Shown here piece by piece: positions 6,702 through 43,704 of a stretch of 64,000 bases of DNA (its first letter is position 1; every line of letters begins with the position of its first letter). Below the pieces are notes generated by a model. It ran no database searches. It had not been told where the DNA came from and saw only the letters and a list, made by a program, of their open reading frames with translations. Source of the DNA: Muribaculaceae bacterium (GTDB lineage Bacteria > Bacteroidota > Bacteroidia > Bacteroidales > Muribaculaceae); NCBI GenBank assembly GCA_017619355.1, contig JAFZSO010000036.1:1-64000 (forward strand), given 5' to 3'. Made by a program: the position numbers and the translations under genes.

Positions 6702-6731
6702 CAAGATAAGTGATAGTATTAACCTAAACAG

Positions 6732-9693: not shown

Positions 9694-9938
9694 AATGCTA
9701 TAACGTTTAAAAAAATTATCAATATGATTTTGCCTTTTAGACCCTATACAAGGGTTAAAGTTTAAATTTAGCTCACCAAATTACATATTTATTTCCACAT
9801 ATTGTGGGTTTTAACTCAAAAAACATCACTCAATAAACTTTTTTTAACCCAAAACGGACACAACCGCACTGGATTTACCACACTCTTGCAATTTCTGTGC
9901 CAATTTTTTAACCGCGTTTTCAGCAACCCGCTCAAGGG

Positions 9939-9970
9939 TTTGTATATTAGCCGACATTGTGCTATATTTG
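9939..9970 (+). promoter_or_regulatory. Strong promoter implying a leaderless or near-leaderless mRNA
   Basis: TTTG at 9939-9942, a 20-base spacer and TATATTTG at 9963-9970 match the Bacteroidetes consensus. The ATG at 9975 is only four bases after the -7 box, where transcription would start. Confidence 0.7.
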
Positions 9971-9974
9971 CACT

Positions 9975-10355: not shown

Positions 10356-10382
10356 CCCACACACAACTTTTCCATATATAAT

Positions 10383-10829: not shown

Positions 10830-10858
10830 ACAATCAAGTAGTAAAGGAAACCGCTCTC

Positions 10859-13560: not shown

Positions 13561-13632
13561 AGTTATAAAGTTTTTAGTGAATAATCGTAATGGTATTTGA
13601 GCACTTTCAGCACAGCTTGATGCTCTAATTAG

Positions 13633-13664
13633 CAAAGATACACATTTTTCCGGTGCCAACCAAA
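13633..13664 (-). promoter_or_regulatory. Promoter of the HerA/P1 peptidase operon
   Basis: On the minus strand TTTG (13664-13661), a 20-base spacer and TATCTTTG (13640-13633) form a full consensus promoter about 70 bases before the ATG. Confidence 0.75.
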
Positions 13665-13683
13665 TTATATCATTTTTTTTCAA

Positions 13684-13691
13684 TAACTTTG
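13684..13691 (+). promoter_or_regulatory. -7 box for the CvfB-like gene, divergent from the HerA promoter
   Basis: TAACTTTG lies 23 bases before the ATG at 13715. It is back to back with the minus-strand promoter, so the two promoters share about 50 bases. Confidence 0.6.
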
Positions 13692-13714
13692 CATACTCTA
13701 AATTGATACAAAGC

Positions 13715-22424: not shown

Positions 22425-23225
22425 ATGTTCTCACGCAATCTAAGAGTCTCGATTTTTGAAGACAACATCATCTGGGCCGACAAAGCCGCCAACCTGGAAC
22501 AACTCAAGCGAAACCTGCGCAATATGCCCGAGGATACCGACCTCGTCATCCTCCCCGAACTCTTCACCACGGGCTTCATCATCGATGACCGTGACCTGGC
22601 CGCCAGCCTCGCTGAGCGTAACACCGGCGAAACCATAAGTACCCTGCACCAGCTCGCCAACGAGTATCATGTGGCTTTCACCGGCACCTTCCTGGCGCAT
22701 ACTGCAGGGCAGCTCTTCAACCGTGCCTTCTTCATCGAACCTAACGGCGAAGACACCTTCTACGACAAGCGCCACCTCTTTGCTTTTGGTGGCGAAGACA
22801 AGGTCTACAAGCAAGGTGTGGTAAATCAGGCGCCCATCATACGCTATCGTGGCTTCAACATTAAGCTCATTGTGTGCTATGACCTGCGCTTCCCCGTCTT
22901 CATCCGCAATGTGAACAACAACTACGACTTGCTCATCGTAGTGGCCAACTGGCCCAAAGCCCGCGAGAATTCGTGGAAAACCCTGCTCATGGCGCGTGCC
23001 ATCGAGAACGAATGCTACGTGTGTGGCGTGAACCGCTGCGGCACCGACCCGCAAGGCATCGAGTACAGCGAAGGCTCATCGCTCATCATCGACTTCAAGG
23101 GAAAAGTCATCACTCAGCGTGGCACAAGCCCCATCATCGCCGCCGACCTCTCGCCCGCCCCGCTGGCACGCTTCCGCGAGAAGTTCCCCGCTTGGCGCGA
23201 CGCCGACCCCTTCAGCCTCCTCTAA
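22425..23225 (+). CDS. Carbon-nitrogen hydrolase, omega-amidase type
   Basis: This nitrilase-superfamily amidase (266 residues) resembles YafV/Nit2 omega-amidases, which hydrolyse 2-oxoglutaramate or 2-oxosuccinamate. The catalytic triad is visible: Glu in LPELFTTGF, Lys in YDKRHLF, and Cys in VCYDLRFPV. NWPKARENSWKTLL, ARAIENECYVCGVNR and a terminal FPAWRDADPF match the family. The gene follows the acyltransferase and is followed after 8 bases by the membrane regulator. Confidence 0.9.
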   Translation: MFSRNLRVSIFEDNIIWADKAANLEQLKRNLRNMPEDTDLVILPELFTTGFIIDDRDLAASLAERNTGETISTLHQLANEYHVAFTGTFLAHTAGQLFNRAFFIEPNGEDTFYDKRHLFAFGGEDKVYKQGVVNQAPIIRYRGFNIKLIVCYDLRFPVFIRNVNNNYDLLIVVANWPKARENSWKTLLMARAIENECYVCGVNRCGTDPQGIEYSEGSSLIIDFKGKVITQRGTSPIIAADLSPAPLARFREKFPAWRDADPFSLL

Positions 23226-23233
23226 TTATTGTT

Positions 23234-24964
23234 ATGATGAAACGCTGGTCTGGCATATTGCTCTTGCTGTTCGCGACCCTGCTGTGGGGCTGTGGGGGCA
23301 GTCACGACGCGCGCATTGTGGCGGTGCTCGACCGCGCCGACTCGCTGCTGCGCACCAGCGATACCGCCGCCCACAGTGCGGCCCTGCGCCAGATGGTGGC
23401 GCTCGACACCGCTCACATCCTGCAGTCCGACGAGATGCTGCGTGCCCGCCACGCCCTGCTGCTCGCGCAGGCACGCTACAAGTGCTATGTGACTGAGCCT
23501 GCTGACAGTGGCCTGATGGAAATCGCCCGCAACTATTACGCTGACCATCACTCGTCGGCGCAAGACCACGAACGCTATACCCGCGCCCTGATCTATAGCG
23601 GCTGTGTAGCCGAAGAGCTCGGCCACCCCCAGCAAGCCATGCAGTACTACCTCGAGGCCGAGTCCACCGCCGACCCCAACGATCACTTCAACCTCGGCTA
23701 CGTGAATATGTGCATAGCTGGAATCTATGAGTCAGAATATACTACCGACTCCACCGATCTGGTGCGCTATAAGCAGGCATTGCCGCATTTCGAGAAAGCG
23801 GGTAGCGACTATTATCAGGCTGTTTGCCTCACTAACATTGGTGGACTATACCGCACCCATAACAACGATAGTGCCATGCACTATCTGCAACAAGCCATCA
23901 GTTTTTCCAAGGAACACGGACTTACATACAACTATTATAAGTCACTTGACAAACTTTGCGGACTCTATTATGTAAAAGAAGAATATACAAAATCGAGAAA
24001 TCTTGCGACGCAGATTTATAGAGAAAGTCACGGTTTTTATTATGGTACACAATATCTCTCATTTGGAATAAGGTCTTTTGCAAAACTCGGCATGATTGAT
24101 TCGGCTGAATATTATTTCAAGCTACTGCCAGAACCACAATCTCCAGTCGACTCCATGATGCTTCACAAGACGCTTTCCGTTATTGCAGAAGCGAAGAATG
24201 ACTATAAGGCTGGCATTGCTAACTATCGAAAATCGAATGAAGTGGCCGACACTATCATTCTCAAATCAAATTCAGAATTACTTAAGACCATAGAACAACA
24301 ATACCATACGAATCAGTTAAAGAACGAAACAGAAAAAGCCAAAGGAAATGTTTGGCTGTTATGGACTATCATAGTCCTTATTGCGTTGTTTTCTTGTTAC
24401 ATTACTTACAAGTTTATCAGGGCGAGAAACCTGATGTCTCAACTTGACAAGGAAAACAAGATGATTTCTAAATCATTAAAAGATCTTCAAGAAAAGGCAA
24501 AAAACTTGGAGCGACAACCCATAGATTCACATCAAGAGAAAAATGGTACTATAGATTTAATTGACAGTGAAATTGCTATTTTGACAGAACTATCGCAAAA
24601 ACTATCCTATCCAAGAAAAATGTCATTGAAAGATGTTTTATTCTCAAAGGGCATCTCAACAAAGCTGTCTTTAAAACCATTAAGTCCAGATTTTTGGAAC
24701 AACCTTTTCCAAGTTGCCGATATCAAGTCAAAAGGGATTATTACATATTTGAATAATAATTACGACTGCAAGCCTAAAGAACTGAAATTTATTGCGCTTG
24801 TTTGTTTTGGTTTTTCTAATCAGATCATTCAGCAATGCATGGATTATTCCAACGTCAAAACAGTAAGCAACTATAAAAGTAGCCTTCTAAAGAATATTAC
24901 TGGAGAAAACAAGTCACTTGACTTATTTATAGCAGATTACATGATGAATGAGAATGTGAAATAA
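23234..24964 (+). CDS. Membrane TPR regulator with C-terminal LuxR-like domain
   Basis: The 576-residue protein has an N-terminal signal/anchor with a lipobox-like LLWGC, then TPR-like helical repeats to about residue 350. One transmembrane helix follows at about 373-395, then a coiled coil. The cytoplasmic C-terminal domain (ELKFIALVCFGFSNQIIQQC, NVKTVSNYKSSLLKNI) resembles a degenerate LuxR-type helix-turn-helix. Such Bacteroidales proteins are thought to sense and signal across the inner membrane. The first about 480 bases are GC-rich like the housekeeping genes before it. From about 23.7-23.95 kb onward the gene is AT-rich like the lanthipeptide block after it, so it may be chimeric. It probably controls the cluster downstream (inference). 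Confidence 0.72.
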   Translation: MMKRWSGILLLLFATLLWGCGGSHDARIVAVLDRADSLLRTSDTAAHSAALRQMVALDTAHILQSDEMLRARHALLLAQARYKCYVTEPADSGLMEIARNYYADHHSSAQDHERYTRALIYSGCVAEELGHPQQAMQYYLEAESTADPNDHFNLGYVNMCIAGIYESEYTTDSTDLVRYKQALPHFEKAGSDYYQAVCLTNIGGLYRTHNNDSAMHYLQQAISFSKEHGLTYNYYKSLDKLCGLYYVKEEYTKSRNLATQIYRESHGFYYGTQYLSFGIRSFAKLGMIDSAEYYFKLLPEPQSPVDSMMLHKTLSVIAEAKNDYKAGIANYRKSNEVADTIILKSNSELLKTIEQQYHTNQLKNETEKAKGNVWLLWTIIVLIALFSCYITYKFIRARNLMSQLDKENKMISKSLKDLQEKAKNLERQPIDSHQEKNGTIDLIDSEIAILTELSQKLSYPRKMSLKDVLFSKGISTKLSLKPLSPDFWNNLFQVADIKSKGIITYLNNNYDCKPKELKFIALVCFGFSNQIIQQCMDYSNVKTVSNYKSSLLKNITGENKSLDLFIADYMMNENVK

Positions 24965-25171: not shown

Positions 25172-25537
25172 ATGAATAAAAAAATTTTTTTCACATTTGC
25201 TCTATTGTTATTTATTACATCAGCTCATGCTGATAAAAAAGACTACATTGAGCAAAAAATTGAGATGAAAGGTCAAAGGCCTCACACTGAAGTGAACATC
25301 CCTGCCGATATGCCAGACGTATTTTATAACAATGTGTCTGGCACTATCACCATCGTCGATTATGCAAATGTAACTTACTATGTAACGATTTACGACGACT
25401 GGTGGAATGCCGTCATCACCGACACCAAACCCGGCGGCGGAACCATCAACGTCTCCTCTCTCACCAGCGGTGACTACGTTATCGACATCACCACCTCCTG
25501 GTCCAACCAGTATGAGGGAGAGTTTACCGTACCCTAA
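25172..25537 (+). CDS. DUF3244-like small exported protein
   Basis: The protein (121 residues) has a signal peptide (to TSAHA) and an immunoglobulin-like beta sandwich. It carries VSGTITIVDYANVTYYVTIYDD and the DUF3244-type ending LTSGDYVIDITTSWSNQYEGEF. DUF3244 proteins are small Bacteroidales exported proteins of unknown role. It heads the operon, 35 bases before the lanC-like gene. The ATG at 25172 is chosen because it gives a clean signal peptide. Confidence 0.7.
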   Translation: MNKKIFFTFALLLFITSAHADKKDYIEQKIEMKGQRPHTEVNIPADMPDVFYNNVSGTITIVDYANVTYYVTIYDDWWNAVITDTKPGGGTINVSSLTSGDYVIDITTSWSNQYEGEFTVP

Positions 25538-25572
25538 AGAATTACCTTTTATAATTAATAAATCCTACGACC

Positions 25573-26745
25573 ATGAAGGAGATAGAAGATATTCTTGAAG
25601 GAGTTGCCAAGACTGTACGGCAGAAGCTTGAAACCACTGCCACGCTCAACTACAGCCTGCTTGGTGGCAACTTTGGGGAAATCCTTTTCCTTTACTATTA
25701 TTCAAGAGTCAATCACGACTATCTAGCCATAGCTGAGCAGCAGACCGACAGGATGTTCGCCGACATGAGCAGAATAATGTCTATTGCCTCATACTGCAAT
25801 GGGCTTGCAGGACTTGCTATAGGTTTGAACGAACTGCAGCGTGACGGGTTCATGCAAGGCATTGACGATGCCATAGAGGTATTTGACGATGCCATAGAGA
25901 CGCAGCAGCAAGAAGATTTCCGTTCAAACCGTCATGACTTCCTTCATGGTTTCATTGGCTTGGGATTCTACTGGCTCATGCGCTACAGGAACAGTGGCGT
26001 GGGCATAAAGCCACTCATGGAGATAGTAGAATACCTTTCAACCACATGCAATGAAGTTGATGAAATGCTCAGGTGGCTTCTGCCTGAGGGTAAACGAGAT
26101 AGCCGTTATAACATATCTCTTTCGCATGGATTGTCGAGCACAATCATATTGCTCACACGCATTGACCTGCTCTCGACGCTCACCAAGCATGAACACGCAG
26201 AAATAGAACGTCTTGTAAGCGGTGCTGTGAGCTATTTAAACTACAACAGGCTTGACCTTAACAGATTTGGAAGTTGGTTTCCAATGAGCTCAATAGACAC
26301 TGCCAATCCAGCCAAAAGCCGTCTGGCGTGGTGCTATGGTGACCTGGGAGTGGCTCAGGCTCTATTATCGGCAAACAGAATTGGACTGGCTCTAGATGTA
26401 TTTCAACATTCGGCATTGAGGCGGGATTTGATTGAAAACAGGGTCTATGATGCCACCATCTGTCACGGTACAGCAGGCTTAGGGACCTTTTTTGATTATC
26501 TGGCACATTGCCATCCCTCTAAACTTTTCCTTGACGCGGCAGATTACTGGAGAAATCAGACGCTCAGGAAAGTGGAATACGTGAACGGAAATGCCCAGTT
26601 CCGTCACATGTCTGGCCTCAACGGAAAATTTGAGGAAGGACATGGAATCCTGGTCGGTACAGCCGGGGTTGGTCTCTACCTGCTCGACTGCATTGGCATC
26701 AAGACACCGTTAAACAGATTTCTGCTGTTGGAACCCTATGAATAA
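25573..26745 (+). CDS. LanC-like lanthionine cyclase
   Basis: LanC enzymes add Cys thiols to dehydroalanine or dehydrobutyrine to make (methyl)lanthionine rings, using a zinc ion. The 390-residue protein shows the alpha-toroid glycine motifs (CNGLAGLAIGL, HDFLHGFIGLGFYW, LSHGLSS). The zinc ligands are present: Cys254 in WCYGDLG, and Cys297-His298 in ICHGTAGLG. A last repeat is GHGILVGTAGVGLYLLD. The cyclase should therefore be active. It precedes and overlaps the dehydratase gene by eight bases. Confidence 0.9.
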   Translation: MKEIEDILEGVAKTVRQKLETTATLNYSLLGGNFGEILFLYYYSRVNHDYLAIAEQQTDRMFADMSRIMSIASYCNGLAGLAIGLNELQRDGFMQGIDDAIEVFDDAIETQQQEDFRSNRHDFLHGFIGLGFYWLMRYRNSGVGIKPLMEIVEYLSTTCNEVDEMLRWLLPEGKRDSRYNISLSHGLSSTIILLTRIDLLSTLTKHEHAEIERLVSGAVSYLNYNRLDLNRFGSWFPMSSIDTANPAKSRLAWCYGDLGVAQALLSANRIGLALDVFQHSALRRDLIENRVYDATICHGTAGLGTFFDYLAHCHPSKLFLDAADYWRNQTLRKVEYVNGNAQFRHMSGLNGKFEEGHGILVGTAGVGLYLLDCIGIKTPLNRFLLLEPYE

Positions 26746-28933
26746 GCCAGCCATCACATACCGGCCCACAGCGAGATTTGTCATGCGGTTCCCAAGGTTT
26801 CCGCTCAAGGTTCTTGAAACAGCCGTGCAAGGCGAGAGTGAATTCATGCCCTTGATGAAAAGTGATGAGTTCAGAAATGCCCTGCTATTTTCATCTCCTG
26901 CCCTGCATGAACAGTGGGAGAAGTTGATAAATGGGGAAAAAACAGATGTGAAAGACAGGAACAGAGTGATTGTTTCGGCACTGAAGTATCTTGTCAGAAT
27001 GTCAGCCCGCTGCACACCCTTTGCCTCTCTGGCTTCATGCGCCGTTGCCGAATGGGGCGTGAAGAACTCACTGGTTGTCAGTGACAAGCTGCAACAAGAT
27101 TTCAGGATTGATATGCTCTATCAGTGCCAGTTGGCACAGTATCTCCAAAACAAACTCTCAAAAGTGTTGCGTTACCGGTTGAATGAGTCCGTGTATGTGG
27201 TTGGTAACCAATATAGGTATGTGGCTGTCGGCATGACTAAGTCGGGGCGCACCTTCTATATAAAAGAGGTGGCAAGAACCGGACTGTTGTCCTCTGTACT
27301 CAAGTTTGCGCATGATTATCTGCCATTTGAAGAGCTTGTCTCACGGGTAACAAATATTTGTGACTGCAATGCCGATGAAGCTGAGGCCTACGTGAGCCAG
27401 CTGATACAGGAACAGCTGCTTACAAGCGAGATAGCACCAAATGTTACAGGCCATGATGTCCTTGCGAGGTTGATTGATGCTGCTTCGAGTCTTGGGTGCG
27501 ATGAATATGCACAGGAATTGTCGTCAATCGATGCTGTGTTAAAAGAATTTGATATAGAAAGTTCTGTTGATGCCAACCTTGATGCGAGGAACCGTGTAAA
27601 AAGCTTTTTTATCGAGAAGAGCATACGAGTACAGGAAAAATATCTGATACAGCTTGACACATATAGGGAAATGCTCAGTGCAACCCTCGACAAGAATCTC
27701 CAGAAGCAACTGCTGCAGGGATTGAAGATGCTCAGTGCATTGACTCCCAATCATCGCCATGGCCTTCTCGAAAATTTCAAGAAGCGGTTTCAGGAGAGGT
27801 ATGAGGAGCAGGAGATTCCCCTGCTTGAAGCGCTTGACCCTGATGTCGGGGTGGGCTTCATTGTCGAGGAAGACAGGATATATTCACGTCTGATTGGCGG
27901 CATCAGATTGCCTGCAGGAAAAAGCACGTCATCAATATCGCTAACACCCATAACACGACTTCTTCTCGCCAAACTGCATGAATATGACCTGTCGGATGGC
28001 AGTTTCATAGAGTTTACCGACAAAGACATCGCAAAACTTGAATGTGGCTTCAATGACCTTCCTCTGTCAATGAGTGCCATGTTCAAATTGCTTGATTACG
28101 ATTCTCAAAAGCGGGAATATCTCATTGGCGGGCTGCACTTCACTGGTTCAAGCGGTGCAAACATGCTGGGAAGGTTTGCTGGTGGAAACGCACAGATCAT
28201 GAAGATTGTCGAGTCTGTTGCCAGAAGCGAGAGTACGGCCTATGGTGATGAAATCATGGCTGAAATTGTCCATATTCCTGACAGCCGCACTGGTAACATC
28301 CTGCATAGACCTCATGTGCGTGATTACGAAATTGCCTATCTCAGCAATACCACGCTTGACGAAGAACACCGCATTCCCATCAATGACTTGCTTGTGTCGG
28401 TGAAGGGAGGCAGGATTGTTCTGCGTTCGAGGAAACTTGGAAAGGAGGTTGTTCCACGACTGACCACCGCTCACAATTACAGCCAGAACAAGCTGACTCC
28501 AGTCTATCGCTTTCTGTGCAATATGCAGCAGCAGACGGGTCGGATGTCTCTGAACTTTTCATGGCAAGGGCTGGAACAGGCATTTGACCATCTGCCACAA
28601 GTCAGATATAAGAACATCATCCTTAAACCAGCACAATGGAATATAATAAGAAAAGAACTGCCATTCAAACAAAACCCACTTGATATGGAATTTGTGGAAT
28701 CTTGGAGAAAAAAACTAGAACTGCCTCGACGTGTATTGCTCGTTTCGGGTGACAACAAACTGCCCATCGACCTGAACAGCAGTCTGAGTGTGCAGGCTAT
28801 GCTAAGCGAGACAGGAAACCTTGAAAGTTTTGTTTTGGAAGAGTTCATTCCCTGCCGTCATGTGACTGTGGATGAACACGGCCAAGACTACATGAACGAA
28901 TGTATAATCCCTTTTATAAAAGTAAGGCAATGA
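26738..28933 (+). CDS. LanB-type dehydratase, glutamylation half
   Basis: LanB enzymes use glutamyl-tRNA to glutamylate Ser/Thr of a precursor peptide. This 731-residue protein corresponds to the N-terminal (Lant_dehydr_N) half. It begins with FVMRFPRFPL and carries the family signature YLVRMSARCTPFASLAS at about residues 84-100. Later it has RLIGGIRLPAGK and the C-terminal PRRVLLVSGDNKLPIDL. The elimination domain, fused in nisin-type LanB, is here a separate gene, so the dehydratase is split. ATGA overlaps with the next gene show tight coupling. Confidence 0.88.
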   Translation: MNKPAITYRPTARFVMRFPRFPLKVLETAVQGESEFMPLMKSDEFRNALLFSSPALHEQWEKLINGEKTDVKDRNRVIVSALKYLVRMSARCTPFASLASCAVAEWGVKNSLVVSDKLQQDFRIDMLYQCQLAQYLQNKLSKVLRYRLNESVYVVGNQYRYVAVGMTKSGRTFYIKEVARTGLLSSVLKFAHDYLPFEELVSRVTNICDCNADEAEAYVSQLIQEQLLTSEIAPNVTGHDVLARLIDAASSLGCDEYAQELSSIDAVLKEFDIESSVDANLDARNRVKSFFIEKSIRVQEKYLIQLDTYREMLSATLDKNLQKQLLQGLKMLSALTPNHRHGLLENFKKRFQERYEEQEIPLLEALDPDVGVGFIVEEDRIYSRLIGGIRLPAGKSTSSISLTPITRLLLAKLHEYDLSDGSFIEFTDKDIAKLECGFNDLPLSMSAMFKLLDYDSQKREYLIGGLHFTGSSGANMLGRFAGGNAQIMKIVESVARSESTAYGDEIMAEIVHIPDSRTGNILHRPHVRDYEIAYLSNTTLDEEHRIPINDLLVSVKGGRIVLRSRKLGKEVVPRLTTAHNYSQNKLTPVYRFLCNMQQQTGRMSLNFSWQGLEQAFDHLPQVRYKNIILKPAQWNIIRKELPFKQNPLDMEFVESWRKKLELPRRVLLVSGDNKLPIDLNSSLSVQAMLSETGNLESFVLEEFIPCRHVTVDEHGQDYMNECIIPFIKVRQ

Positions 28934-29784
28934 AAAGAATTCAAACAATACAAAGGGATTTCTATCCAGGAGACCGTTGGGTTTTCTTCAAAATCTATGG
29001 CGGTCTTGTAGCTTGCGACAATCTGTTGACAACTAAGATATTTCCACTTGCCAAACGACTGATGAAAGCCGGTGCTGTGAAAAAATGGTTCTTCATCAGG
29101 TATTCCGACCCCCGTTATCATCTTCGTGTCAGGTTTGAGATTGCCTCGCTGGAGTGTTTTGCTGCAGTGGTGGAAAGCGTGAACAGGGTCATCGCACCTT
29201 TGTGCAGAAAACGGCTACTTGACAAGATTGTAATTGACACTTACCGCCGTGAGATAGAACGATATGGCGCGCCTCTGATAGAGATGAGTGAAACACTGTT
29301 CTGCCATGAGAGCATCTGCATCTGCAAGGTTTTGAATGCACTCGAGAGGTCGGGCCGGCGGGATGACCGCTGGATGATTGCCTTCAGGATGGCCGAACGC
29401 ATGCTCACCTCTTTTGGATTGAGTCTTGAAGAAAAGAGCAATCTGTCGAAACGTATGTGCAAGACCATGCTCAAGGAATATAGCTATGATGAGCACAACC
29501 AGAAACCGCTCAATGAGCGCTACCGTGCATTGAGAAAGGATATTGCCAACTGTGTTGAAGGAGTATTTGACAAATCCGTTACTAGTGCCATTGAAAAGTA
29601 TGCACAAGTAATCAGCAATACTTTAGATAGCCGCAAGTATAAGGCTGTGAACATTACGTCTCACATTCACATGATGAATAACCGCCTCTTTGCAGCGCAA
29701 GGCAGATTTCATGAAATGATGCTATACTTTTGCCTGTCAAGGTTCTACGAAAGCCAGCTGGCAAGAATTAAATACAACAAATAA
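28930..29784 (+). CDS. Thiopeptide-type bacteriocin biosynthesis protein (SpaB_C-like elimination half)
   Basis: The 284-residue protein matches the SpaB_C / thiopeptide-type domain. It has GDRWVFFKIYGGLVACDNLL near the N-terminus and WFFIRYSDPRYHLRVRF at residues 53-69. It ends with SHIHMMNNRLF, typical of the domain. The family removes glutamate to leave a dehydro-amino acid, or in other contexts builds pyridine rings. Beside LanC and the LanB N-half, elimination is the likely role. The chosen ATG at 28930 overlaps the LanB stop (ATGA); an earlier in-frame ATG at 28900 lies inside lanB. Confidence 0.85.
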   Translation: MKRIQTIQRDFYPGDRWVFFKIYGGLVACDNLLTTKIFPLAKRLMKAGAVKKWFFIRYSDPRYHLRVRFEIASLECFAAVVESVNRVIAPLCRKRLLDKIVIDTYRREIERYGAPLIEMSETLFCHESICICKVLNALERSGRRDDRWMIAFRMAERMLTSFGLSLEEKSNLSKRMCKTMLKEYSYDEHNQKPLNERYRALRKDIANCVEGVFDKSVTSAIEKYAQVISNTLDSRKYKAVNITSHIHMMNNRLFAAQGRFHEMMLYFCLSRFYESQLARIKYNK

Positions 29785-29816
29785 TTCATTTTATTAATTT
29801 TTAAATTTTTACGATT

Positions 29817-30320
29817 ATGAAAAAGTTATCCAAGAACGACCTGAAATTGAAAGGTCAATTGGTGACAGGGCTGACAGATGGGAATGTTCCATCATGTCAA
29901 GACTCCAAGCTAGATGGAGACTGTGAAACTAAAGACACTATGCAAGAGTGTTATGATACTCTCAGGCAATGCACTTTTGACACATTGCAGATTTGTAATT
30001 ATACGGAAATCGATAGTTGTGACGGCAATGAAACAAATTATGACACTTGTGCGGAATCCGATAATTGCATTGTTGACTCAATCTCAGGTGGTGATTTATG
30101 CTGCCTCGGTAGAACATACGATTCTGAATGTCCAGATTGCGTTGTTATACTGCCAAGTATAACTGAATGTCCGTTGACCGAAGGTGAAGATGAAACCTGT
30201 AAACTTGCCCCATGTATTCATGAAACGGATGATTGTATATCTGTAAATGTGTGCGAGCAGACCTCAGATTGTCCAGAAACAAGAATCTGTTGGGGAACTG
30301 ATGCATTTTGCAAAGACTGA
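29817..30320 (+). CDS. Putative lanthipeptide precursor 1 (20 Cys)
   Basis: This 167-residue protein has no signal peptide. Its leader-like N-terminus (MKKLSKNDLKLKGQLVTGL) closely matches precursor 2. The rest is very acidic and Cys/Ser/Thr-rich: 20 Cys from residue 27 to 165 and about 26 Ser/Thr. Between residues 45 and 68 the Cys recur every 7-8 residues, each preceded by Thr or Ser (DTLRQC, DTLQIC, EIDSC). SGGDLCC at residues 90-96 recurs in precursor 2. It lies 32 bases after the biosynthetic genes. It is much longer than usual lanthipeptide precursors. Confidence 0.78.
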   Translation: MKKLSKNDLKLKGQLVTGLTDGNVPSCQDSKLDGDCETKDTMQECYDTLRQCTFDTLQICNYTEIDSCDGNETNYDTCAESDNCIVDSISGGDLCCLGRTYDSECPDCVVILPSITECPLTEGEDETCKLAPCIHETDDCISVNVCEQTSDCPETRICWGTDAFCKD

Positions 30321-30405
30321 ATGAGTGTTGCTAAACAAATGAAATACAAAATGTCAATTTATTCAAGAATACTCTTTTTATAAAATCAATTTAAAGATAA
30401 CCATC

Positions 30406-31143
30406 ATGCGCCAATTACTTATTTGTTATATCTCGATTTTCGTAGTGGGGCTTTTCGCCTGCGATGACGATGTGCCGAGCTGGGCAAAAGACGTAGATAG
30501 CGCCGTAGATCTTGGCCTGAGCGTGAAATGGGCTCCATGCAATCTGGGTGCCTCGCAGTCCTATGAGAGCGGTGGCCTCTATGGCTGGGGCGACCCCACT
30601 GGAAAAGCTGTTTCGGTTGATTCAATGGATTTTAACCAAGACCTGGAAACTGGCATACGCTATGTGAAATGGAATTACCGCTCGCTCTATGGTGGACAGA
30701 ACCCTCCGCAGGACATTTCAGGCACTGGTTATGACCTCGCCACAAAGATGCTGGGCAAGAACTGGCGAATGCCCACCAAGAGGGAAATGCAGGAACTGCT
30801 CAAATATTGTAGATGGGAGAAGACCGAAGAGCACGGCGTGCCGGGAATGAAGGTGACAGGCAACAATGGCAACAGCATTTTCTTGCCCATAACCAACTTC
30901 CGCAATGGAGGAAAGGTTTATCCCACATTTAAAGACAGGGGCTATTATTGGTCCTCAACTCTTAGTACCGAAGAGGAGGAGGCGAAAAGCCTGAACTACA
31001 AGGAACTGGGCGCGTCACCCTGCTGTGCTGGAGCGCTTTACTTCAACATGACAACAACTGTTGATACGGGCCGCATATATATCACTTTTGAGGCTAATAC
31101 CAGACATTCGGGTTTAGCCATCAGACCAGTTTTGAACAAGTAG
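30406..31143 (+). CDS. FISUMP-domain surface lipoprotein
   Basis: The protein (245 residues) has a lipoprotein signal with lipobox LFAC (Cys19) followed by Asp-Asp-Asp, which resembles the Bacteroidetes surface-export signal. The domain (DLGLSVKWAPCNLGASQSYE, LYGWGDP, GTGYDLATKMLGKNWRMPTKREMQELL, GYYWSST) is the FISUMP type. It sits between the two precursor genes on the same strand, 85 and 78 bases away. Its role there is unknown; immunity or surface display are possible guesses. Confidence 0.8.
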   Translation: MRQLLICYISIFVVGLFACDDDVPSWAKDVDSAVDLGLSVKWAPCNLGASQSYESGGLYGWGDPTGKAVSVDSMDFNQDLETGIRYVKWNYRSLYGGQNPPQDISGTGYDLATKMLGKNWRMPTKREMQELLKYCRWEKTEEHGVPGMKVTGNNGNSIFLPITNFRNGGKVYPTFKDRGYYWSSTLSTEEEEAKSLNYKELGASPCCAGALYFNMTTTVDTGRIYITFEANTRHSGLAIRPVLNK

Positions 31144-31162
31144 TTTTAAAATACATATCATT

Positions 31163-31204
31163 GTTTTGTCAAAACTAATTGGCTGTTATTAGATAATCTA
31201 ATAA
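31163..31204 (+). promoter_or_regulatory. Two perfect palindromes upstream of precursor 2
   Basis: A 13-bp palindrome (GTTTTG-T-CAAAAC, 31163-31175) and a 19-bp palindrome (TTATTAGAT-A-ATCTAATAA, 31186-31204) lie in the 78-base gap. The second ends 17 bases before the ATG. They may be operators or a weak attenuator tuning precursor 2. Confidence 0.5.
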
Positions 31205-31221
31205 TTTAATTATTCAATATT

Positions 31222-31566
31222 ATGAAAAAGATATCAAAAGACGATTTGAAATCAAAAATTCAAGTAGTAACAGGATTAAACGAAACAGTTGATGGTTCAC
31301 AAAATAATCCTGAACGTGGACTGACTGAAGATGGGGTTGAACGGTGTATCCCTGATACCTTTTACTCTAATTGTTTATGTTATACATTGGGGGAATTAGG
31401 TTGTGTTCAGTCTAGAAATTGCCCTCAAACAGAGTCTGGTGGTGATATTTGCTGCGCTGATACACTTGATGATGTTAAGACCTGTGTAGCAGAGACACAT
31501 GATGGATGTTTGGCACCTACAATAGAAAGTGAAGACCTTGCTTGCAATGATACTGAAGGATGTTAA
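31222..31566 (+). CDS. Putative lanthipeptide precursor 2 (11 Cys)
   Basis: The 114-residue protein begins MKKISKDDLKSKIQVVTGLN, matching the precursor 1 leader at most positions. The core is acidic with 11 Cys (residues 42-114) and ends in Cys. SGGDICC at residues 72-78 repeats the SGGDLCC of precursor 1. There is no signal peptide. The shared leader, shared core motif and position next to split LanB and LanC make it a paired substrate. No leader peptidase or dedicated exporter is seen in the window. Confidence 0.76.
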   Translation: MKKISKDDLKSKIQVVTGLNETVDGSQNNPERGLTEDGVERCIPDTFYSNCLCYTLGELGCVQSRNCPQTESGGDICCADTLDDVKTCVAETHDGCLAPTIESEDLACNDTEGC

Positions 31567-31613
31567 CACTTTCTTATAATTGAGGGATTAATCGTAATTA
31601 ATTTGCGTATTTT

Positions 31614-31645
31614 TTTGATAATTATCAAAATCAATACTATATTTG
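31614..31645 (+). promoter_or_regulatory. Promoter of the MG2/plug-like protein
   Basis: TTTG at 31614-31617, a 20-base spacer and TATATTTG at 31638-31645 form a full consensus promoter. Transcription would start close to the Shine-Dalgarno sequence. Confidence 0.75.
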
Positions 31646-31652
31646 CAAAGAA

Positions 31653-31658
31653 AGGAGG
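31653..31658 (+). promoter_or_regulatory. Perfect Shine-Dalgarno sequence, rare in this window
   Basis: AGGAGG lies 8 bases before the ATG at 31667 and decides that start over the in-frame TTG at 31643, which would lie within the promoter. Confidence 0.7.
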
Positions 31659-31666
31659 AACTGGAT

Positions 31667-34423
31667 ATGCTGTCGAAAGGATATTATAGAGTGATTATGC
31701 TGTTGCTTGCCCTGCAGTGTTCCGTGTGTGCGCTGGCTGATGATTTTGATGTCATCAGTGAGCGGTTGGCATTGCAGCGCTTCAACTTCCCGCAAGAGAA
31801 ACTGCACATCACCACCGACAAGTCGCGGTATATGGCTGGTGACACCATCTGGCTGCGTGCCTTTGTGGTGAACGCCGCCACACATGAGCCTGTGGATGCC
31901 AGCAAGTATTGCTATGTGGAACTGATTAACCCTTTCGACAGTGTAGAACTGCGCATCAAGGTCAAGGAGAAGGACGGGGTGATTCAGGGTTATCTTGCCT
32001 TGCCGCCCCAGCTTCCCGAGGGCAGCTACACCCTTGCAGGCTACACCCTGTTCATGCAAAGCCTCGACGAGGGCTACTTCTTCAAGAAACGCATCGAGGT
32101 GATGAGTGCGCACTCCACACGCAGCAGCATCGTGTGTGATGTGGAACGAGACCCGAAAAGCCCTGGCCGTGTGAGGGTCACAGCACATTATCTTGACCTG
32201 CACACAAGAGCAGAGAAAGAATTCAAGTTGATGACCTATGTGACATCTGACCAGTTCAAGCGGCAGCATAGTCAGGGCAAATCACCGATGACGTTCTCAT
32301 TGAACGAGAAGGAGACCCTGGGAGGAGCTGTGCTCGTTCGGTTCGACGGCTTCAGCAAGTTTGTGCCGTTGCCTCCCGATGAAAACCAGGCCGAGGTCCG
32401 CTTTTTCCCCGAAGGGGGGTATCTTGTGCCGGATGCCAGGAATCATGTGAGTGTGAAAGCTATATATGCCGATGGCAGCGAGGCCTCCGCTACAGGCCGC
32501 GTGCTGGACAGCTATGGTAACGAGGTGGCGACATTCACGACCGGCCATGCAGGCATAGGCGACTTCTACTTTGAGCCACAAGCGGGCATGGTCTATAGAG
32601 CGGTGTGCCGTCTGCATGGCGTTGACAAAGAGCGAGAGTTTGAGTTGCCGCAGGTGAAAAGCAATGCCACCATTGTGCAGGTGGATACTGGAGCCGACGG
32701 GCAAATTCACATCAGACCGGTGGGGGCAAAGACAGCTCAGTGTCTCATCATTGTGCAGCAGCGCGGCGTTCTGCTTGCAACGGGAACCGACAGCATCACT
32801 TTGCCCGGTGAATCGTTGAGTGCAGGAGTTATTCAGGCATTGCTGCTTGACGAGCGAATGCGCCCGCTGAGCGAGCGCCTGTTCTATGTGCCAGGCACGA
32901 AAACACGTGGGGTGAAGGTGGCGTGCGACAAGAATGCCTATGCGAGTCGCGACCGTGTAGTGGTCACAACCAGTCTCGAAGGCTTTGCCGCCCCTCTGGG
33001 CAACTATGCCGTGAGCGTGACCGACGACAAGTCGGTCATAGCCGAGAGCGCGTCGGCCATAGAGGTCAATCTGCTGCTGCAGTCTGACCTGCGCGGCCAT
33101 CTGCCAGATCTGGCCTACTACTTTGCCCAAGAGAGGCGTGAAAGCGAACTCGATGCCATGCTCATGACGCATGGCTGGCGGCGATACAACATACCCGATG
33201 TGCTGCGCGGGCAGCTTGCCGAACCATCATTTCCCATTGAGCAAGGCCTATCGGTGACAGGAACGGTTGTTAGCGAGTGGAAGAAGACCCCAATTAAAGG
33301 CGGCTCCGTGCAGGTGCTTGTGCCTAAGCTAGGCTATGGCAACACATTTGCCACCAACGATGAGGGCGAGTTCGTCATAGAGGGTTTTGAGCTACCCGAC
33401 AGTGCGCTTCTGGTGCTTCAGGCCTACAACAGCAAGGGCGGTCAGGAGATGAATGTGGCATTGAACCTAGAGCAGCGCCCCGCAATCACCTCAGCTGCCA
33501 TGAAACATGAAAATCGGGTTGTGAGGAATGTTGTCAATACGTTTAAAGACACCGATTTAGGCGATTTTCTGGAAGCCGAGGCAAAGCGGATGCAGTATAT
33601 CGACGGCTTGCGCAACATTGTGCTCGGTGAAGTGGAAGTAACGGCTTTAGCCAAAGATGAGCCTAAAGACGTGTTTCAGCAGCTTGCCGCCCGTTCGTTT
33701 GATGAGGAATATATGGAAGAGAGCCAGATTACTTCGATTGAAGATGCCGTCAGGCGCATTGCCGGCATCAGGATAACGGGTGGGCGTGTGAAGTCGGCAC
33801 GTACCGGCGGCAATGTGGGATTCTTCCTCGATGGGGTATATGTGGAACCCATGAAGTATGCCTTGGGTAATGGTAGCGGTGTGTTTATAATCAGGCAAAA
33901 GCATGAACTGGACTTAGCTGATGTGAGTGAAGTCAAGTCAATTGAAGATGAAATGGAGAAGTCAGGCACGGTAAACAACGCACTTGTCTTGCAGGAACTT
34001 GACCAGCAGGTACCATTTCAGTCCATCAAGCGAATTGACTATATCCAGCCTCAAATGGCAGTGGCCTTAGGGCATCGGGGTACCGATGGCGGAGCCATTA
34101 TGATTACTACCAAAGACGGGGTCAACAAATACAGGTTTAAAGACATGAACCCCTATCTCAAGACCTATATTATGCACGGCATCCAGAGTCCAGCTGAATT
34201 CTTCAGTCCCGACTACGACTTGGGCGACAATGGCAAGGCCCTCAACACCGACCTGCGCAACACCCTCTACTGGAATCCCTGTGTGCAGGTGGGCAGCGAT
34301 GGCAAGTCAAGATTCAGTTTCTTTGCCGCCGATGTGCCTAACACCACCTACACCATCACCATCGAGGGCATCACCGCCGACGGCAGCATCATTGCCACCA
34401 CCCACAAAGTCAAGAAACAGTAG
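31667..34423 (+). CDS. Large exported MG2 / TonB-plug-like protein
   Basis: The protein (918 residues) has a signal peptide (to ALADDF). An alpha-2-macroglobulin MG2-like N-terminus reads FPQEKLHITTDKSRYMAGDTIWLRAFVV and is followed by further beta domains. At about residues 690-750 a plug-like segment reads SIEDAVRRIAGIRITGGRV and GNVGFFLDGVYVEP. The end (SRFSFFAADVPNTTYTITIEG) is another beta domain. Such proteins are common in Bacteroidales and are usually periplasmic or outer-membrane associated, without known substrates. Its own promoter separates it from the precursor genes. It could help the peptide cross the envelope, but that is only inferred from position. Confidence 0.72.
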   Translation: MLSKGYYRVIMLLLALQCSVCALADDFDVISERLALQRFNFPQEKLHITTDKSRYMAGDTIWLRAFVVNAATHEPVDASKYCYVELINPFDSVELRIKVKEKDGVIQGYLALPPQLPEGSYTLAGYTLFMQSLDEGYFFKKRIEVMSAHSTRSSIVCDVERDPKSPGRVRVTAHYLDLHTRAEKEFKLMTYVTSDQFKRQHSQGKSPMTFSLNEKETLGGAVLVRFDGFSKFVPLPPDENQAEVRFFPEGGYLVPDARNHVSVKAIYADGSEASATGRVLDSYGNEVATFTTGHAGIGDFYFEPQAGMVYRAVCRLHGVDKEREFELPQVKSNATIVQVDTGADGQIHIRPVGAKTAQCLIIVQQRGVLLATGTDSITLPGESLSAGVIQALLLDERMRPLSERLFYVPGTKTRGVKVACDKNAYASRDRVVVTTSLEGFAAPLGNYAVSVTDDKSVIAESASAIEVNLLLQSDLRGHLPDLAYYFAQERRESELDAMLMTHGWRRYNIPDVLRGQLAEPSFPIEQGLSVTGTVVSEWKKTPIKGGSVQVLVPKLGYGNTFATNDEGEFVIEGFELPDSALLVLQAYNSKGGQEMNVALNLEQRPAITSAAMKHENRVVRNVVNTFKDTDLGDFLEAEAKRMQYIDGLRNIVLGEVEVTALAKDEPKDVFQQLAARSFDEEYMEESQITSIEDAVRRIAGIRITGGRVKSARTGGNVGFFLDGVYVEPMKYALGNGSGVFIIRQKHELDLADVSEVKSIEDEMEKSGTVNNALVLQELDQQVPFQSIKRIDYIQPQMAVALGHRGTDGGAIMITTKDGVNKYRFKDMNPYLKTYIMHGIQSPAEFFSPDYDLGDNGKALNTDLRNTLYWNPCVQVGSDGKSRFSFFAADVPNTTYTITIEGITADGSIIATTHKVKKQ

Positions 34424-39277: not shown

Positions 39278-41281
39278 ATGGCAGAAAATAAGATTGAACT
39301 AAAATCGGTGAATGAACTTCTTGGGATGAAGTTTTTTATACCTAGCTATCAGCGTGGTTATAGATGGACGGAGCAGCAAGTCAAGGACCTGCTCAATGAC
39401 ATTGAAGAATTCAGATTAAGGAACAAATCCATAACGGACTTTTATTGCCTTCAACCACTTGTAGTCAGAGAGAATATTGATGACAAAAACAGTTTCATAA
39501 ATAACCTACCCAAGGCAACTGATTTAGAAAAAGATGTCTTAGGTATAACACGAAAAGCGATATCTGAACATACAAAATGGGAAGTTATTGACGGGCAGCA
39601 ACGCTTAACAACCATTCTCATCATTCTATCTTTTTTATCATCAAACGATGAAGGAAACAAACCTTACTCCATTGATTATCAAACCAGAAATGATTTTGAT
39701 AAATTTTTAAACAAAATAAAGGATATTGATACCCCTGATATTCTTGAACAACAAAGCTTTGTTAAAGAAAAGTTCGATGAGGTTATAAAAAACGATGACA
39801 AATTCAACAATATCGATTTTTATCATATTTTTCAAACTCTAGCCACAGTCAAGCATTGGTTTAACATTAATAATAATATTGATAAAAATGAGTTTAAGAA
39901 AACCATTTTAAATAGGGTTAAATTCATTTGGTATGAGTCTGTTGATGAAAATCCTATTAAAGTCTTCACCCGGCTAAATATTGGCAAGATATCTTTAACC
40001 AATGCCGAACTTATTAAGGCACTATTTTTAAATCAATCAAACTTCCCGGGCATTGACAACAATTCATTTAAGCTTAAACAACAAGAGATAGCAAGTGGAT
40101 GGGATATTATTGAATACACACTGCAAAACGATGAGTTTTGGCTTTTCCTACACAAAAATGGATATAACCGCCCAACTCGAATAGACTTCATATTTGACTT
40201 AATTTGCGACCAAAATGCAATGAATTTGCCTGATAACACCCGTATTGGCACTGACGGTTATAGAACATTCCGTTATTTTTATGAATACTTCAAACAGGGT
40301 GCGTCAGAACAAGATTCTAGAGAAATAGCAAAGGTTGAATCATGTTGGGATGAGGTGAAAAAGTATTTCCAGACATTCCAAGAGTGGTTCAACGATTTGG
40401 AAATGTATCATTATGTTGGTGTGTTATTGTCCGATGATTTTAATCGAGGTCTATCAGATATTGTGAGAAAGTGGACAGGAAGCAAAAACGAGTTTCTTAA
40501 ATACTTAAAGGACATGATATCTAATGAAATTAAGGTTCCCGACGGCAAGTATTTTTGCAACGAAAATCATATTGAAGAGTCATTACATTTCGATTCTGAA
40601 AAAAAACTGATTCGGAAGATATTATTAATGCACAATATTCAAACTGTAATTAATCAGAATAAACAACTAAAAGAAAAAGAGGATTACCAACTACCCGTGT
40701 TCTATAAATTTCCATTCCACTTGTTTAAAAAAGAGAAATGGGATGTAGAGCATATTGATTCTCATTCAAAGAATGACATGAATGATAAAGATTCAAAAAA
40801 TGAATTCTTGTTGAATATTTATTACTCTGTTGATGATGAGACCCAGAAAAAAATCGAAGCATTCATCAATAATTCAGATGCTAACAATTGGGATGATTTC
40901 ATTGAATATACGAAGAAACCAAAAGATTCATTGTCAGATGAAGAAAAGGACCAAATTTGGAATTTTACTCTTTTGGATTATTCTACGAACCGCAGTTATG
41001 GCAACTCAATCTTTACTGCCAAGCGACGAATTATCATAGGTAAAGACAGAGGCATTGCATTGCCAATACCGATAATCAAGAAAGAAAAAAACCAAAGCAA
41101 ATTAAGTATTGGAGAAGAAGCAAAAGCTAAAACAGCATTCATTCCACCTTGTACCAAGAATGTTTTCATGAAATACTACACTCCAGTTTTGACGAATTAC
41201 AATTATTGGACAAAACCCGATGCCGATGCATACAAACAGAATATTCTCGACATACTGAAAGATTTTAAAGTTAGTAAATGA
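39278..41281 (+). CDS. DUF262-DUF1524 protein, GmrSD-like
   Basis: The protein (667 residues) combines an N-terminal DUF262 (ParB/Srx-like NTPase) and a C-terminal DUF1524 HNH-type nuclease, as in GmrSD type IV restriction enzymes. DUF262 is shown by FFIPSYQRGYRWTEQQVKDL and DGQQR at residues 105-109. DUF1524 is shown by WDVEHIDSHSKND, with candidate catalytic His492, then LLDYSTNRSYGNSIFTAKRR. The motifs look intact. AT content is visibly higher than in the flanking core genes, suggesting transfer. Its stop overlaps the next start (ATGA). Confidence 0.82.
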   Translation: MAENKIELKSVNELLGMKFFIPSYQRGYRWTEQQVKDLLNDIEEFRLRNKSITDFYCLQPLVVRENIDDKNSFINNLPKATDLEKDVLGITRKAISEHTKWEVIDGQQRLTTILIILSFLSSNDEGNKPYSIDYQTRNDFDKFLNKIKDIDTPDILEQQSFVKEKFDEVIKNDDKFNNIDFYHIFQTLATVKHWFNINNNIDKNEFKKTILNRVKFIWYESVDENPIKVFTRLNIGKISLTNAELIKALFLNQSNFPGIDNNSFKLKQQEIASGWDIIEYTLQNDEFWLFLHKNGYNRPTRIDFIFDLICDQNAMNLPDNTRIGTDGYRTFRYFYEYFKQGASEQDSREIAKVESCWDEVKKYFQTFQEWFNDLEMYHYVGVLLSDDFNRGLSDIVRKWTGSKNEFLKYLKDMISNEIKVPDGKYFCNENHIEESLHFDSEKKLIRKILLMHNIQTVINQNKQLKEKEDYQLPVFYKFPFHLFKKEKWDVEHIDSHSKNDMNDKDSKNEFLLNIYYSVDDETQKKIEAFINNSDANNWDDFIEYTKKPKDSLSDEEKDQIWNFTLLDYSTNRSYGNSIFTAKRRIIIGKDRGIALPIPIIKKEKNQSKLSIGEEAKAKTAFIPPCTKNVFMKYYTPVLTNYNYWTKPDADAYKQNILDILKDFKVSK

Positions 41282-43704
41282 TTCGTCTAACAGTCAAAAT
41301 GAAGAAAACAATGGTAAACTATAAATCATCTCAAAAGATTTCTTTTTGGAAATTTCTAAAAACCACAAAAATAGAAATTCCCATCATTCAACGTGATTAT
41401 GCTCAAGGTCGACTAGGAAAAGAATACCTAAGAAAAAGATTCCTTTCCAATTTAAGAGAAGCGCTAAACAATAAACAAGAACTAAAACTTGATTTTGTAT
41501 ATGGTTCTACTGAAAGTGGGACATTTTATCCTCTTGATGGACAACAGAGATTGACAACACTTTGGCTCTTGCATTGGTATGTTGCTTTGATGTCCGATAA
41601 TCTTAACGAAGACATCTGCAAAGTGCTTGAAAAATTTACATATGAAACCCGCATTTCGTCACGTGAGTTTTGCAAGAATTTATGTAACCCTAAATACTTT
41701 GAAAACTATGCAGACTACAAACCAGAAAGTTCAAGAAGAATTGTTGGTTTTATCACAAGTCGCACTTGGTTCTATTCCGCTTGGAAACAAGACCCCACAA
41801 TTCAAGCTATGCTTAGAATGCTTGGAGGAACACAAATAAAAGACAAAGATAACAAAGACATTATTGACGGTCTAGAAGAATTATTTCCTTGTCCTTTAGA
41901 GTGCCACATTCAGAAAAATGAAAAATTTATCCTAAAAAGAAGTTTTAAAAACTATTGGGATGCATTAACTGGAGATGATTGTCCAATTGTTTTTTATCAT
42001 TTTCCGTTTAAAGATTTTGGATTGTCAGGTGACTTGTATATCAAGATGAACGCTCGTGGCAAGCAATTAACCGCTTTTGAGAATTTCAAAGCGGATCTGA
42101 TAGGCTATATTAGAAAACAAGCAGAAGAATCAACTGATAATAAAACTCAAAAAGATTGGAATGAATTGTTAGATGCCAAGAATGGAATTCCCAAATTAAT
42201 GGATACGACTTGGACAGACATTTTTTGGAATAACAAATCTGAAGAATATTCAATTGATGAAATTTACTTTGCATTCATAAACAGATTCTTCTTAAATGAA
42301 CTTGTCTGCCAAAAGGATAATAACAATGAGTATCTCTACACAGCAAAACAACTTGAAGAAGATAATCCTATATTCTCTTATTTATACGGTGACAAGAGTG
42401 ATGATACAATTATTGATTATGTTGGTTTTGAGAGATACAAGGATATACCACTATCATTTTTAAAGAATCTTAGTAATACATTAAGTTGTATCCCTTATGC
42501 CATCAACTTATCTTCTTTTAATCCAAAGTGGGTTGGACAAGATTTTCAATATATCCCAATTTATAAAGAAATTTCAATATCATCGTTTGAACAAAAGGAT
42601 AGGATTGCATTTCATGCCATATCAAAATATATTCAAAAGGGAACATTCGATGCTGTTTCATTCCAGCAATGGATGCGTGTCGTGTGGAATATAGTTGAGA
42701 ATGCAGGAGTTAATTCTATATCTTCGATGATTGGTGTGATGCGTTTAATTGATGAACTTTCTGAGCATTCTCATGTAATATATTCCTTCTTGTCCAAACA
42801 AGATTCATTAATCAAATCATCTGCTGCTAAAGAACAAGTATATGAAGAGCGTGTAAAAGCAAAACATATTTGTAATAAAGATTTTCGGGAAGAAGATATC
42901 ATTTATGCCGAAAGTCATCCCCTATTAAAAGGATGTATAAGTGTAATTTTTAAAGATGACAAGTGTGATGAAGTCTCTTTTGGTCAAACCATTCGAAAAA
43001 GAACAGATTTACTTGACGAGTTATACAATGCTGATGATGATTATAAGTTAGTAAAAGTTCTAGTTTCGCAATATAATAATCATCAACAAGTTGAAAAATT
43101 AAAATTGAAGAAAGACCCTGATAATTGGAAGAGTCTAGTTACAGACAAATTGAAAGATTGCTACAGGAAAAATGAGAATAATGTTATTAATAATAATTGT
43201 TCTGGATGGCAAAGTATGATATCAAAAACCCCTTTGATTAATAATAGCAGAGACTTAGGCAAGATATTAGGTGGTGATGGTAAAAGAACAGTTTTATGGG
43301 CCACGAATGGTTGCACATGGATTGCTTATGAAAATGTGATTCTTGATAAAGTTCACAACAATCCAAGTCTTTCAGAACTAGTTAGAAACAAGACTATTGA
43401 ATGTAATCAAAAGGTTAAAGATTGTGATTTCTTTTGGGGACAGAATATTGATTTCAAATATAATGAACATTTTTTTCGTTGGTATGACAACCCTAATGAA
43501 AAAGAGCTGGATGTATATTTGATGGAAGACAATTGGAAAGAATATAAACTTCGTTCCAAAGGACGAGACAGAAATACTGATGAAGGCAAAACAGACGAGG
43601 ACACTTATTATTGTTTTCGAGTTGAAGATGGGATAACACCAGAACAGTTCTTAAATAATTTGGACGATCTCATAAAAGAACATAATAACTCTGCTTCAAA
43701 ATAG
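41278..43704 (+). CDS. Second DUF262-type protein of the pair
   Basis: The 808-residue protein has an N-terminal DUF262 signature (EIPIIQRDYAQGR, later DGQQRLTTLWLLHWY at residues 87-101) and GDLYIKMNARGKQLTAFENFKADL. The long remaining region (residues 280-808) has no motif I recognise and no evident HNH, so it may be the recognition or regulatory partner. The start at 41278 overlaps the preceding stop. Internal ATGs at 41299 and 41311 are alternatives. AT-rich like its partner. Confidence 0.78.
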   Translation: MIRLTVKMKKTMVNYKSSQKISFWKFLKTTKIEIPIIQRDYAQGRLGKEYLRKRFLSNLREALNNKQELKLDFVYGSTESGTFYPLDGQQRLTTLWLLHWYVALMSDNLNEDICKVLEKFTYETRISSREFCKNLCNPKYFENYADYKPESSRRIVGFITSRTWFYSAWKQDPTIQAMLRMLGGTQIKDKDNKDIIDGLEELFPCPLECHIQKNEKFILKRSFKNYWDALTGDDCPIVFYHFPFKDFGLSGDLYIKMNARGKQLTAFENFKADLIGYIRKQAEESTDNKTQKDWNELLDAKNGIPKLMDTTWTDIFWNNKSEEYSIDEIYFAFINRFFLNELVCQKDNNNEYLYTAKQLEEDNPIFSYLYGDKSDDTIIDYVGFERYKDIPLSFLKNLSNTLSCIPYAINLSSFNPKWVGQDFQYIPIYKEISISSFEQKDRIAFHAISKYIQKGTFDAVSFQQWMRVVWNIVENAGVNSISSMIGVMRLIDELSEHSHVIYSFLSKQDSLIKSSAAKEQVYEERVKAKHICNKDFREEDIIYAESHPLLKGCISVIFKDDKCDEVSFGQTIRKRTDLLDELYNADDDYKLVKVLVSQYNNHQQVEKLKLKKDPDNWKSLVTDKLKDCYRKNENNVINNNCSGWQSMISKTPLINNSRDLGKILGGDGKRTVLWATNGCTWIAYENVILDKVHNNPSLSELVRNKTIECNQKVKDCDFFWGQNIDFKYNEHFFRWYDNPNEKELDVYLMEDNWKEYKLRSKGRDRNTDEGKTDEDTYYCFRVEDGITPEQFLNNLDDLIKEHNNSASK

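Follow-up and report, generated by a model that had tools for sequence, protein, structure and literature searches.

The locus at positions 25172–34423 of the window (the whole 64,000-nucleotide stretch analysed, from a Muribaculaceae genome) raises the question of whether two unusually long cysteine-rich proteins encoded beside a set of lanthipeptide enzymes are the substrates of those enzymes. The initial annotation had proposed this and had predicted a large polycyclic product. The region is a single run of genes on one strand, with a TPR regulator upstream, and the order is DUF3244-like gene, LanC, the two LanB halves (LanBn and LanBc), precursor 1, a lipoprotein gene, precursor 2 and a gene for an MG2/plug protein (Table 1). 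The two proteins encoded after LanB, of 167 aa with 20 Cys and 114 aa with 11 Cys, were recovered where they had been annotated, and neither matched a Pfam or NCBIfam family. The lipoprotein gene and the MG2/plug gene add to what the initial annotation had described.

Table 1. Features of the lan locus and the preceding regulator gene
Feature	Position in window	Strand	Evidence and remarks
TPR regulator, BT3442-like	23222..24964 (start approximate)	+	NF053779 E 2.8e-17, 62.6 bits vs cut-off 940
Small secreted protein, DUF3244-like	25172..25537	+	PF11589 E 0.04, below gathering
LanC cyclase	25573..26745	+	PF05147 E 9e-34; Zn ligands C254, C297, H298
LanB N-half (LanBn), tRNA-Glu glutamylation domain	26738..28933	+	PF04738 E 1.2e-135
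LanB C-half (LanBc), glutamate elimination domain	28900..29784	+	PF14028 E 2.9e-60; TIGR03891 E 4.6e-52
Precursor 1, 167 aa, 20 Cys	29817..30320	+	leader ~residues 1-21; 19 rings predicted
Predicted lipoprotein, Lcl_C/FISUMP-like C-terminal domain	30406..31143	+	PF07603 E 4.6e-06, below gathering score
Precursor 2, 114 aa, 11 Cys	31222..31566	+	11 rings predicted
Predicted secreted MG2 + carboxypeptidase-regulatory + plug-domain protein	31667..34423	+	918 aa; 926 aa from TTG 31643

The G+C content is 0.53–0.57 in the left-hand genes, 0.38–0.47 from the regulator to precursor 2, with the exception of the lipoprotein gene (0.50), and 0.54 in the MG2/plug gene (mean of the window, 0.48). The drop would fit an acquired island, without proving it. 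Homologues of the regulator, which by eye has a lipoprotein-like N-terminus and one transmembrane stretch, are present in eight other loci of the genus. The DUF3244-like gene is the first after the regulator and has a homologue at the equivalent place in the nearest relative, locus L016. Loci L021 and L022 have a 121 aa ORF at this position without a match to the DUF3244-like protein.

The enzyme genes overlap, as had been noted, LanC and LanBn by 8 nt and LanBn and LanBc by 34 nt. LanC aligned to NisC with the Cys-Cys-His zinc site kept, and the three annotated zinc ligands were invariant in seven aligned sequences including that of the window. LanBn and LanBc aligned along the two halves of NisB and their Pfam matches (PF04738 and PF14028) bear out the assignment of a glutamylation half and a separate elimination (SpaB_C-type) half. 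In LanBn, R87, R91, T93, D125, D307 and R479 were invariant in seven sequences and align to what we take to be the catalytic residues of NisB, while the LanBc of the window keeps the stretches HLRVR, ERYG and HMMNNR, which align to the presumed elimination residues. The class I lanthipeptide enzyme set of the window is intact-looking; in L016, LanBc carries an in-frame stop.

Thiopeptides are defined by a YcaO cyclodehydratase and have no LanC. The split LanB could in principle yield a thiopeptide- or dehydroamino-acid-type product in place of lanthionines, given that LanBc matches TIGR03891 (thiopep_ocin) and that split LanB is known in thiopeptides too (PMC7268733). This is highly improbable, however, with a complete LanC that has its zinc ligands, a LanBc that has kept the NisB elimination-residue stretches and a scan of nine genes that turned up no YcaO. 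A split LanB is itself ordinary in Bacteroidota, both in the loci that we fetched and in the literature (PMC7268733), with relatives in, for example, the named Bacteroidales Odoribacter laneus and Tannerella forsythia.

LanB was found in eight of the 101 genomes of the genus and, across the family, in 14 of the 397 genomes sampled, where one of the 14 holds a remnant. In a quick tree of 85 LanBs, built without a mixture model, the LanBn of 14 loci from five genera (the window, L016–L023, L025 and L169–L172) grouped as a single clade (SH-aLRT 99); L172 and L169 are long branches in this tree. The initial annotation had considered that homologous clusters might instead hold a different conserved small gene. 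A precursor of 92–180 aa with 10–22 Cys was present in 13 of the 14 clade loci, and no other small Cys-rich gene recurred across the loci inspected. No precursor was seen in the 14th, L172, where the contig begins 1.3 kb upstream of LanC. In 12 loci from three genera the precursor starts 17–71 nt after LanBc, and in L019 it is found upstream of LanC with an MG2/plug gene in between.

A profile of the precursors, applied with E values up to 1, matched only the two precursors in the genome of the window. Across the 397 family genomes it found matches in ten, namely the eight LanB genomes of the genus, to which matches within the genus were confined, and two of genus g82. It did not pick up the precursors of G177, G178, G252 and G263, and those emerged on reading the loci themselves. 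By coordinates and contig number, L019 and G252 are one and the same stretch. One of the g82 genomes, G237, contains an intact 163 aa precursor and an MG2/plug gene, and of LanB a remnant of 99 aa is all that was matched there; LanB may have been lost recently, or the precursor may sometimes do without it. In the other, G289, the contig ends within the gene after the precursor. Judged from these sequences, the cluster is a member of a family-level subtype and not a one-off. The two precursors of the window are not chance ORFs, because their cores are acidic, as annotated (33 acidic and 8 basic residues including His in precursor 1, 19 and 5 in precursor 2), they are the sole profile matches in their genome and their homologues lie beside LanB elsewhere.

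The N-termini of the two precursors, which had been described as matched and leader-like, belong to a conserved leader start, and all 19 aligned precursors share D8-L9. The core motif S-x(3-4)-CC was found in all 20 precursors, two of which are near-identical (L023 and the first of L025). Class I lanthipeptides of Bacteroidota are described as having LxLxKx5L leaders, many ending in GG, often a C39 protease, and a split LanB as in pinensin (PMC7268733). The LxLxKx5L pattern was exact in 10/20 precursors, not including those of the window; precursor 1 differs from it in one residue (G in place of K) and precursor 2 in two. Within residues 1–50, GG was seen in three of the 20 (both precursors of L021 at 20 and that of L018 at 47) and in neither precursor of the window. 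The leader is related to that of the Bacteroidota type and is shorter. Around the LanB of Odoribacter laneus, the nearest to the clade in the tree, neither a precursor nor a C39 gene was found in 18 kb.

The best evidence that the precursors are substrates of LanB and LanC comes from a one-to-one pairing of Ser/Thr with Cys. Each Cys was given, where one could be found, a private Ser or Thr 2–7 residues upstream, and the count was compared with shuffles that hold Cys fixed and move the other residues. Using 14 representative cores with less than 50% core identity, chosen from the 20 precursors, 226 of 233 Cys were matched against 167.5±5.3 in the shuffles (z 11.0, a value inflated because the representatives are homologous and share ancestry). 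Six other residue groups (D/E, D/N, E/Q, G/A/V, I/L/V/M and A/G/P) gave z values between -0.8 and 1.5. The choice of core start barely mattered, with 227, 226 and 225 of 233 Cys paired from residues 16, 22 and 26, and 215/231 from residue 31. Tested singly, 17 of the 20 precursors fell below 0.05, among them precursor 1 (0.0005) and precursor 2 (0 of 2000 shuffles as good); three that are related to one another, the first and second precursors of L021 (0.45 and 0.10) and that of L022 (0.49), did not. Ser/Thr was also enriched after Cys, more weakly (198/233, z 7.4), so that the pairing does not fix the direction of the rings. The same signal was obtained for 93 other Bacteroidota LanA cores (315/379 Cys paired, z 8.0). 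Among 22 control Cys-rich ORFs, one of which (L019_3542) is the L019 precursor extended to an upstream start, 121 of 213 Cys were paired (z -0.2).

These results bear on the alternative that the long ORFs encode disulfide-bonded or metal-binding proteins and that the true substrate of LanB and LanC lies elsewhere. Cys-rich acidic proteins can be of either kind, and in G237 the precursor persists beside a degraded LanB. We nevertheless regard this explanation as improbable: the pairing is specific to Ser/Thr, absent from the Cys-rich control ORFs and present in other Bacteroidota LanA cores, the start of the leader is LanA-like, the spacing to LanBc is short and repeated in 12 loci, the loci have no other recurring small Cys-rich gene and by eye no Sec signal was seen on the precursors of the window.

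The locus is probably a class I lanthipeptide cluster that belongs to a Muribaculaceae-type subtype with small proteins as its substrates. This supports the reading of the initial annotation, which the pairing, the spacing from LanBc and the co-occurrence across genomes strengthen without proving it. LanBn would glutamylate Ser and Thr residues of each precursor, whose leader is taken to be about residues 1–21, LanBc would eliminate glutamate to leave dehydroamino acids, and LanC would add each Cys to a dehydroresidue that mostly precedes it by 3–7 residues. A string of small thioether rings would result, about 19 from precursor 1 or 11 from precursor 2. The sequences themselves show the complete enzymes, the order of the genes, the conserved start of the leader, the joint presence of precursor and LanB and the Ser/Thr–Cys pairing, from which dehydration, cyclisation and the ring pattern are inferred. 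These numbers follow from a rule that bridges each Cys to the nearest preceding Ser/Thr (PMC11251773), which gave 19 and 11 rings with spans of 3–7 for the two precursors, and 10–22 rings with a longest span of 12 over the whole set.

No exporter or leader peptidase is seen at the locus, as already noted, and no Peptidase_C39 was found in the genome of the window (89% complete). None was found in any of the eight LanB genomes of the genus, a result limited by their incompleteness (80–98% complete). In the other genera of the clade, there was none in G177, G178 and G252, and one weak match each in G263 and G342, neither at the lan locus. G237 has one strong match, in a 144 aa ORF away from the lan locus. 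The LanB genomes examined from other families had C39 in four of four. We considered the lack of a C39 gene beside the lan genes as a mark of the subtype and rejected it, since among the 71 LanB loci that were fetched from outside the clade, of which some are short, just 32 have a C39-like gene; it is the absence from the genomes that is special. In the loci, C39 and MG2/plug labels each came from one phmmer query. Our guess is that export would use a route without a C39 transporter.

The neighbouring genes encode predicted surface proteins. Wherever the next gene on the same strand is visible in the genus and g82 (15 distinct precursors), it encodes either a FISUMP/Lcl_C-like lipoprotein (nine) or an MG2/plug protein (six); two further precursors (L017 and L023) stop at contig ends, where the next gene is not visible. 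In L169–L171 (g78 and g79) an MG2/plug gene comes next, on the opposite strand. Genome G065 has four precursors (11, 13, 11 and 17 Cys) alternating with FISUMP-like lipoproteins or an MG2/plug protein, with near-identical copies in G039 and G028, and in G159 two precursors alternate with FISUMP-like lipoproteins. The lipoprotein of the window has by eye a lipobox-like stretch (LFAC), and paralogues of it lie downstream of precursors in relatives. The identification of its N-terminal domain as a fimbrillin was an impression without Pfam or PDB support and was dropped. The domains of the MG2/plug protein (PF01835 E 1.4e-06, PF13620 E 0.0016, PF07715 E 0.0095) all scored below gathering, and its relative in L019 passed gathering for PF13620 and PF07715.

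A general dedication of the MG2/plug protein to the cluster was rejected, as 51 of the 101 genomes of the genus carry it (in a single copy in the genome of the window), and for the same reason it may be tied to the peptides by position alone. The MG2/plug-lipoprotein module was also found without adjacent lan genes (L129, L130, L132, L142 and L137, whose genome carries a lan cluster at another place), which suggests that the lan genes were added to a surface-protein module that already existed.

We tentatively suggest that the products are lanthionine-stapled small proteins with 10–22 rings that serve as surface components, exported independently of C39 and partnering the outer-membrane MG2/plug proteins and lectin-like (Lcl_C) lipoproteins. 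The acidic product would, at a guess, act at the cell surface with the co-encoded proteins and would not be a cationic pore-former. A surface or structural role is only tentatively favoured over pore formation and is itself less likely than not, and a bacteriocin with lipoprotein immunity stands at a similar level. In that case the adjacent lipoproteins would be cognate LanI-like immunity proteins, which would explain the alternation of precursors with lipoproteins in G065 and G159. Identity to the respective L016 homologue is 60% for precursor 2 and 90% for LanBn, and this faster divergence of the precursor fits a surface role or a bacteriocin alike; dS was saturated in the dN/dS comparison of the precursor pair. 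The cores are acidic (median net charge 0.14 acidic per residue over 20 cores), in contrast to the positive charge of 94 known lanthipeptides (PMC11251773), with the caveat that the 104 other Bacteroidota candidates also have a slight excess of acidic charge (median 0.04). The immunity-pair explanation is also weakened because MG2/plug-FISUMP modules occur without precursors or adjacent lan genes, and six precursors lead directly into MG2/plug; we still keep it as a rival. For the surface role that we tentatively favour, there is a likeness in SapB-type morphogenetic lanthipeptides, which are non-antibiotic and act at the surface. They are of a different class and size and are alike in putative role only.

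Lanthipeptides are mentioned for rumen Muribaculaceae MAGs (PMC8241843), and within the excerpts of that open-access paper long Cys-rich precursors of this kind are not described. No LanB was reported when 1,136 Bacteroidales genomes were surveyed with BAGEL4, as far as the excerpts go (PMC10352776), in contrast to the split LanB relatives found here in Odoribacter laneus and Tannerella forsythia. Another survey considered only ORFs up to 100 aa (PMC11251773), which suggests that mining may miss such precursors. With pinensin-type lanthipeptides of Bacteroidota the cluster shares the split LanB and LanC (PMC7268733), and 10 of the 20 precursors have the exact LxLxKx5L leader. The GG site and C39 protease of the GG-leader lanthipeptides set those apart, as 17 of 20 precursors here have no GG in residues 1–50 and no C39 was found in the eight LanB genomes of the genus. 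If our reading is true, the cluster offers a way to test how lanthipeptides are exported by cells in whose genome no C39 exporter is found. The precursors adjoin genes for cell-surface proteins and no recognisable exporter gene.

Size is a further difference. The 104 other Bacteroidota candidates, regex matches from 43 loci, have a median of 62.5 aa and three core Cys, and their range of 47–104 aa, against 92–180 aa and 10–22 Cys here, is partly by construction because a GG was required. One of them, from L081, has 99 aa and 11 Cys. For known lanthipeptides, the literature describes cores of greater hydrophobicity and positive charge, and up to seven bridges (PMC11251773). Geobacillin I, elgicin and a T. 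forsythia peptide, with seven known or, for the last, eight predicted bridges, compare with the 10–22 predicted here by the same rule (PMC11251773). If these predictions are true, the number of rings on one ribosomal chain would rise from the known maximum of seven to about 20, which raises the question of how LanB and LanC handle a protein-sized substrate.

Near-identical precursor runs were found in three species of the window's genus (loci L025/L103, L023/L139 and L138) and, together with a dS of 0.014 for LanBn between L025 and L023, suggest recent transfer. In L016, the closest relative (90% identity in LanBn), the LanBc gene is interrupted by a single in-frame stop after codon 232 of approximately 294, which could reflect either decay or an assembly error. 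Going by gene content, the precursor in genome G237 (locus L162) has been retained and the modification enzymes lost.

Coordinates of features in the window and in related loci
Locus	Coordinates	Feature
L016	10160-11047	LanBc
L162 (G237)	10158-13951	LanB remnant (99 aa) beside an MG2/plug gene and an intact precursor of 163 aa
L131	8463-13568	MG2/plug gene close to another lipoprotein in place of FISUMP lipoprotein
L136	6313-9844	As L131
L081 (Sphingobacterium corticibacterium)	3795-10238	LanA, MG2-like protein, LanC, LanB, in this order
L092 (Bacteroidales MAG McBI.38)	4710-7654	Eleven LanA-like genes in series, adjoining LanB
Window	39278-43704	667 aa protein, then 808 aa ORF

Elsewhere in the window, the 667 aa protein is, by appearance, a putative DUF262-type (GmrSD-like) restriction/defence protein.

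No lan genes adjoin the MG2/plug genes of L131 and L136, and the lipoprotein near each has an FGE-sulfatase-like appearance. The LanA-like genes of L092 encode 53-101 aa as called, with 4-8 Cys per gene and GG-type leaders. The LanA of L081 is also GG-type (99 aa, 11 Cys), and the gene for the MG2-like protein there overlaps LanC by 4 nt; this arrangement indicates that the MG2-lanthipeptide link may extend beyond Bacteroidales.
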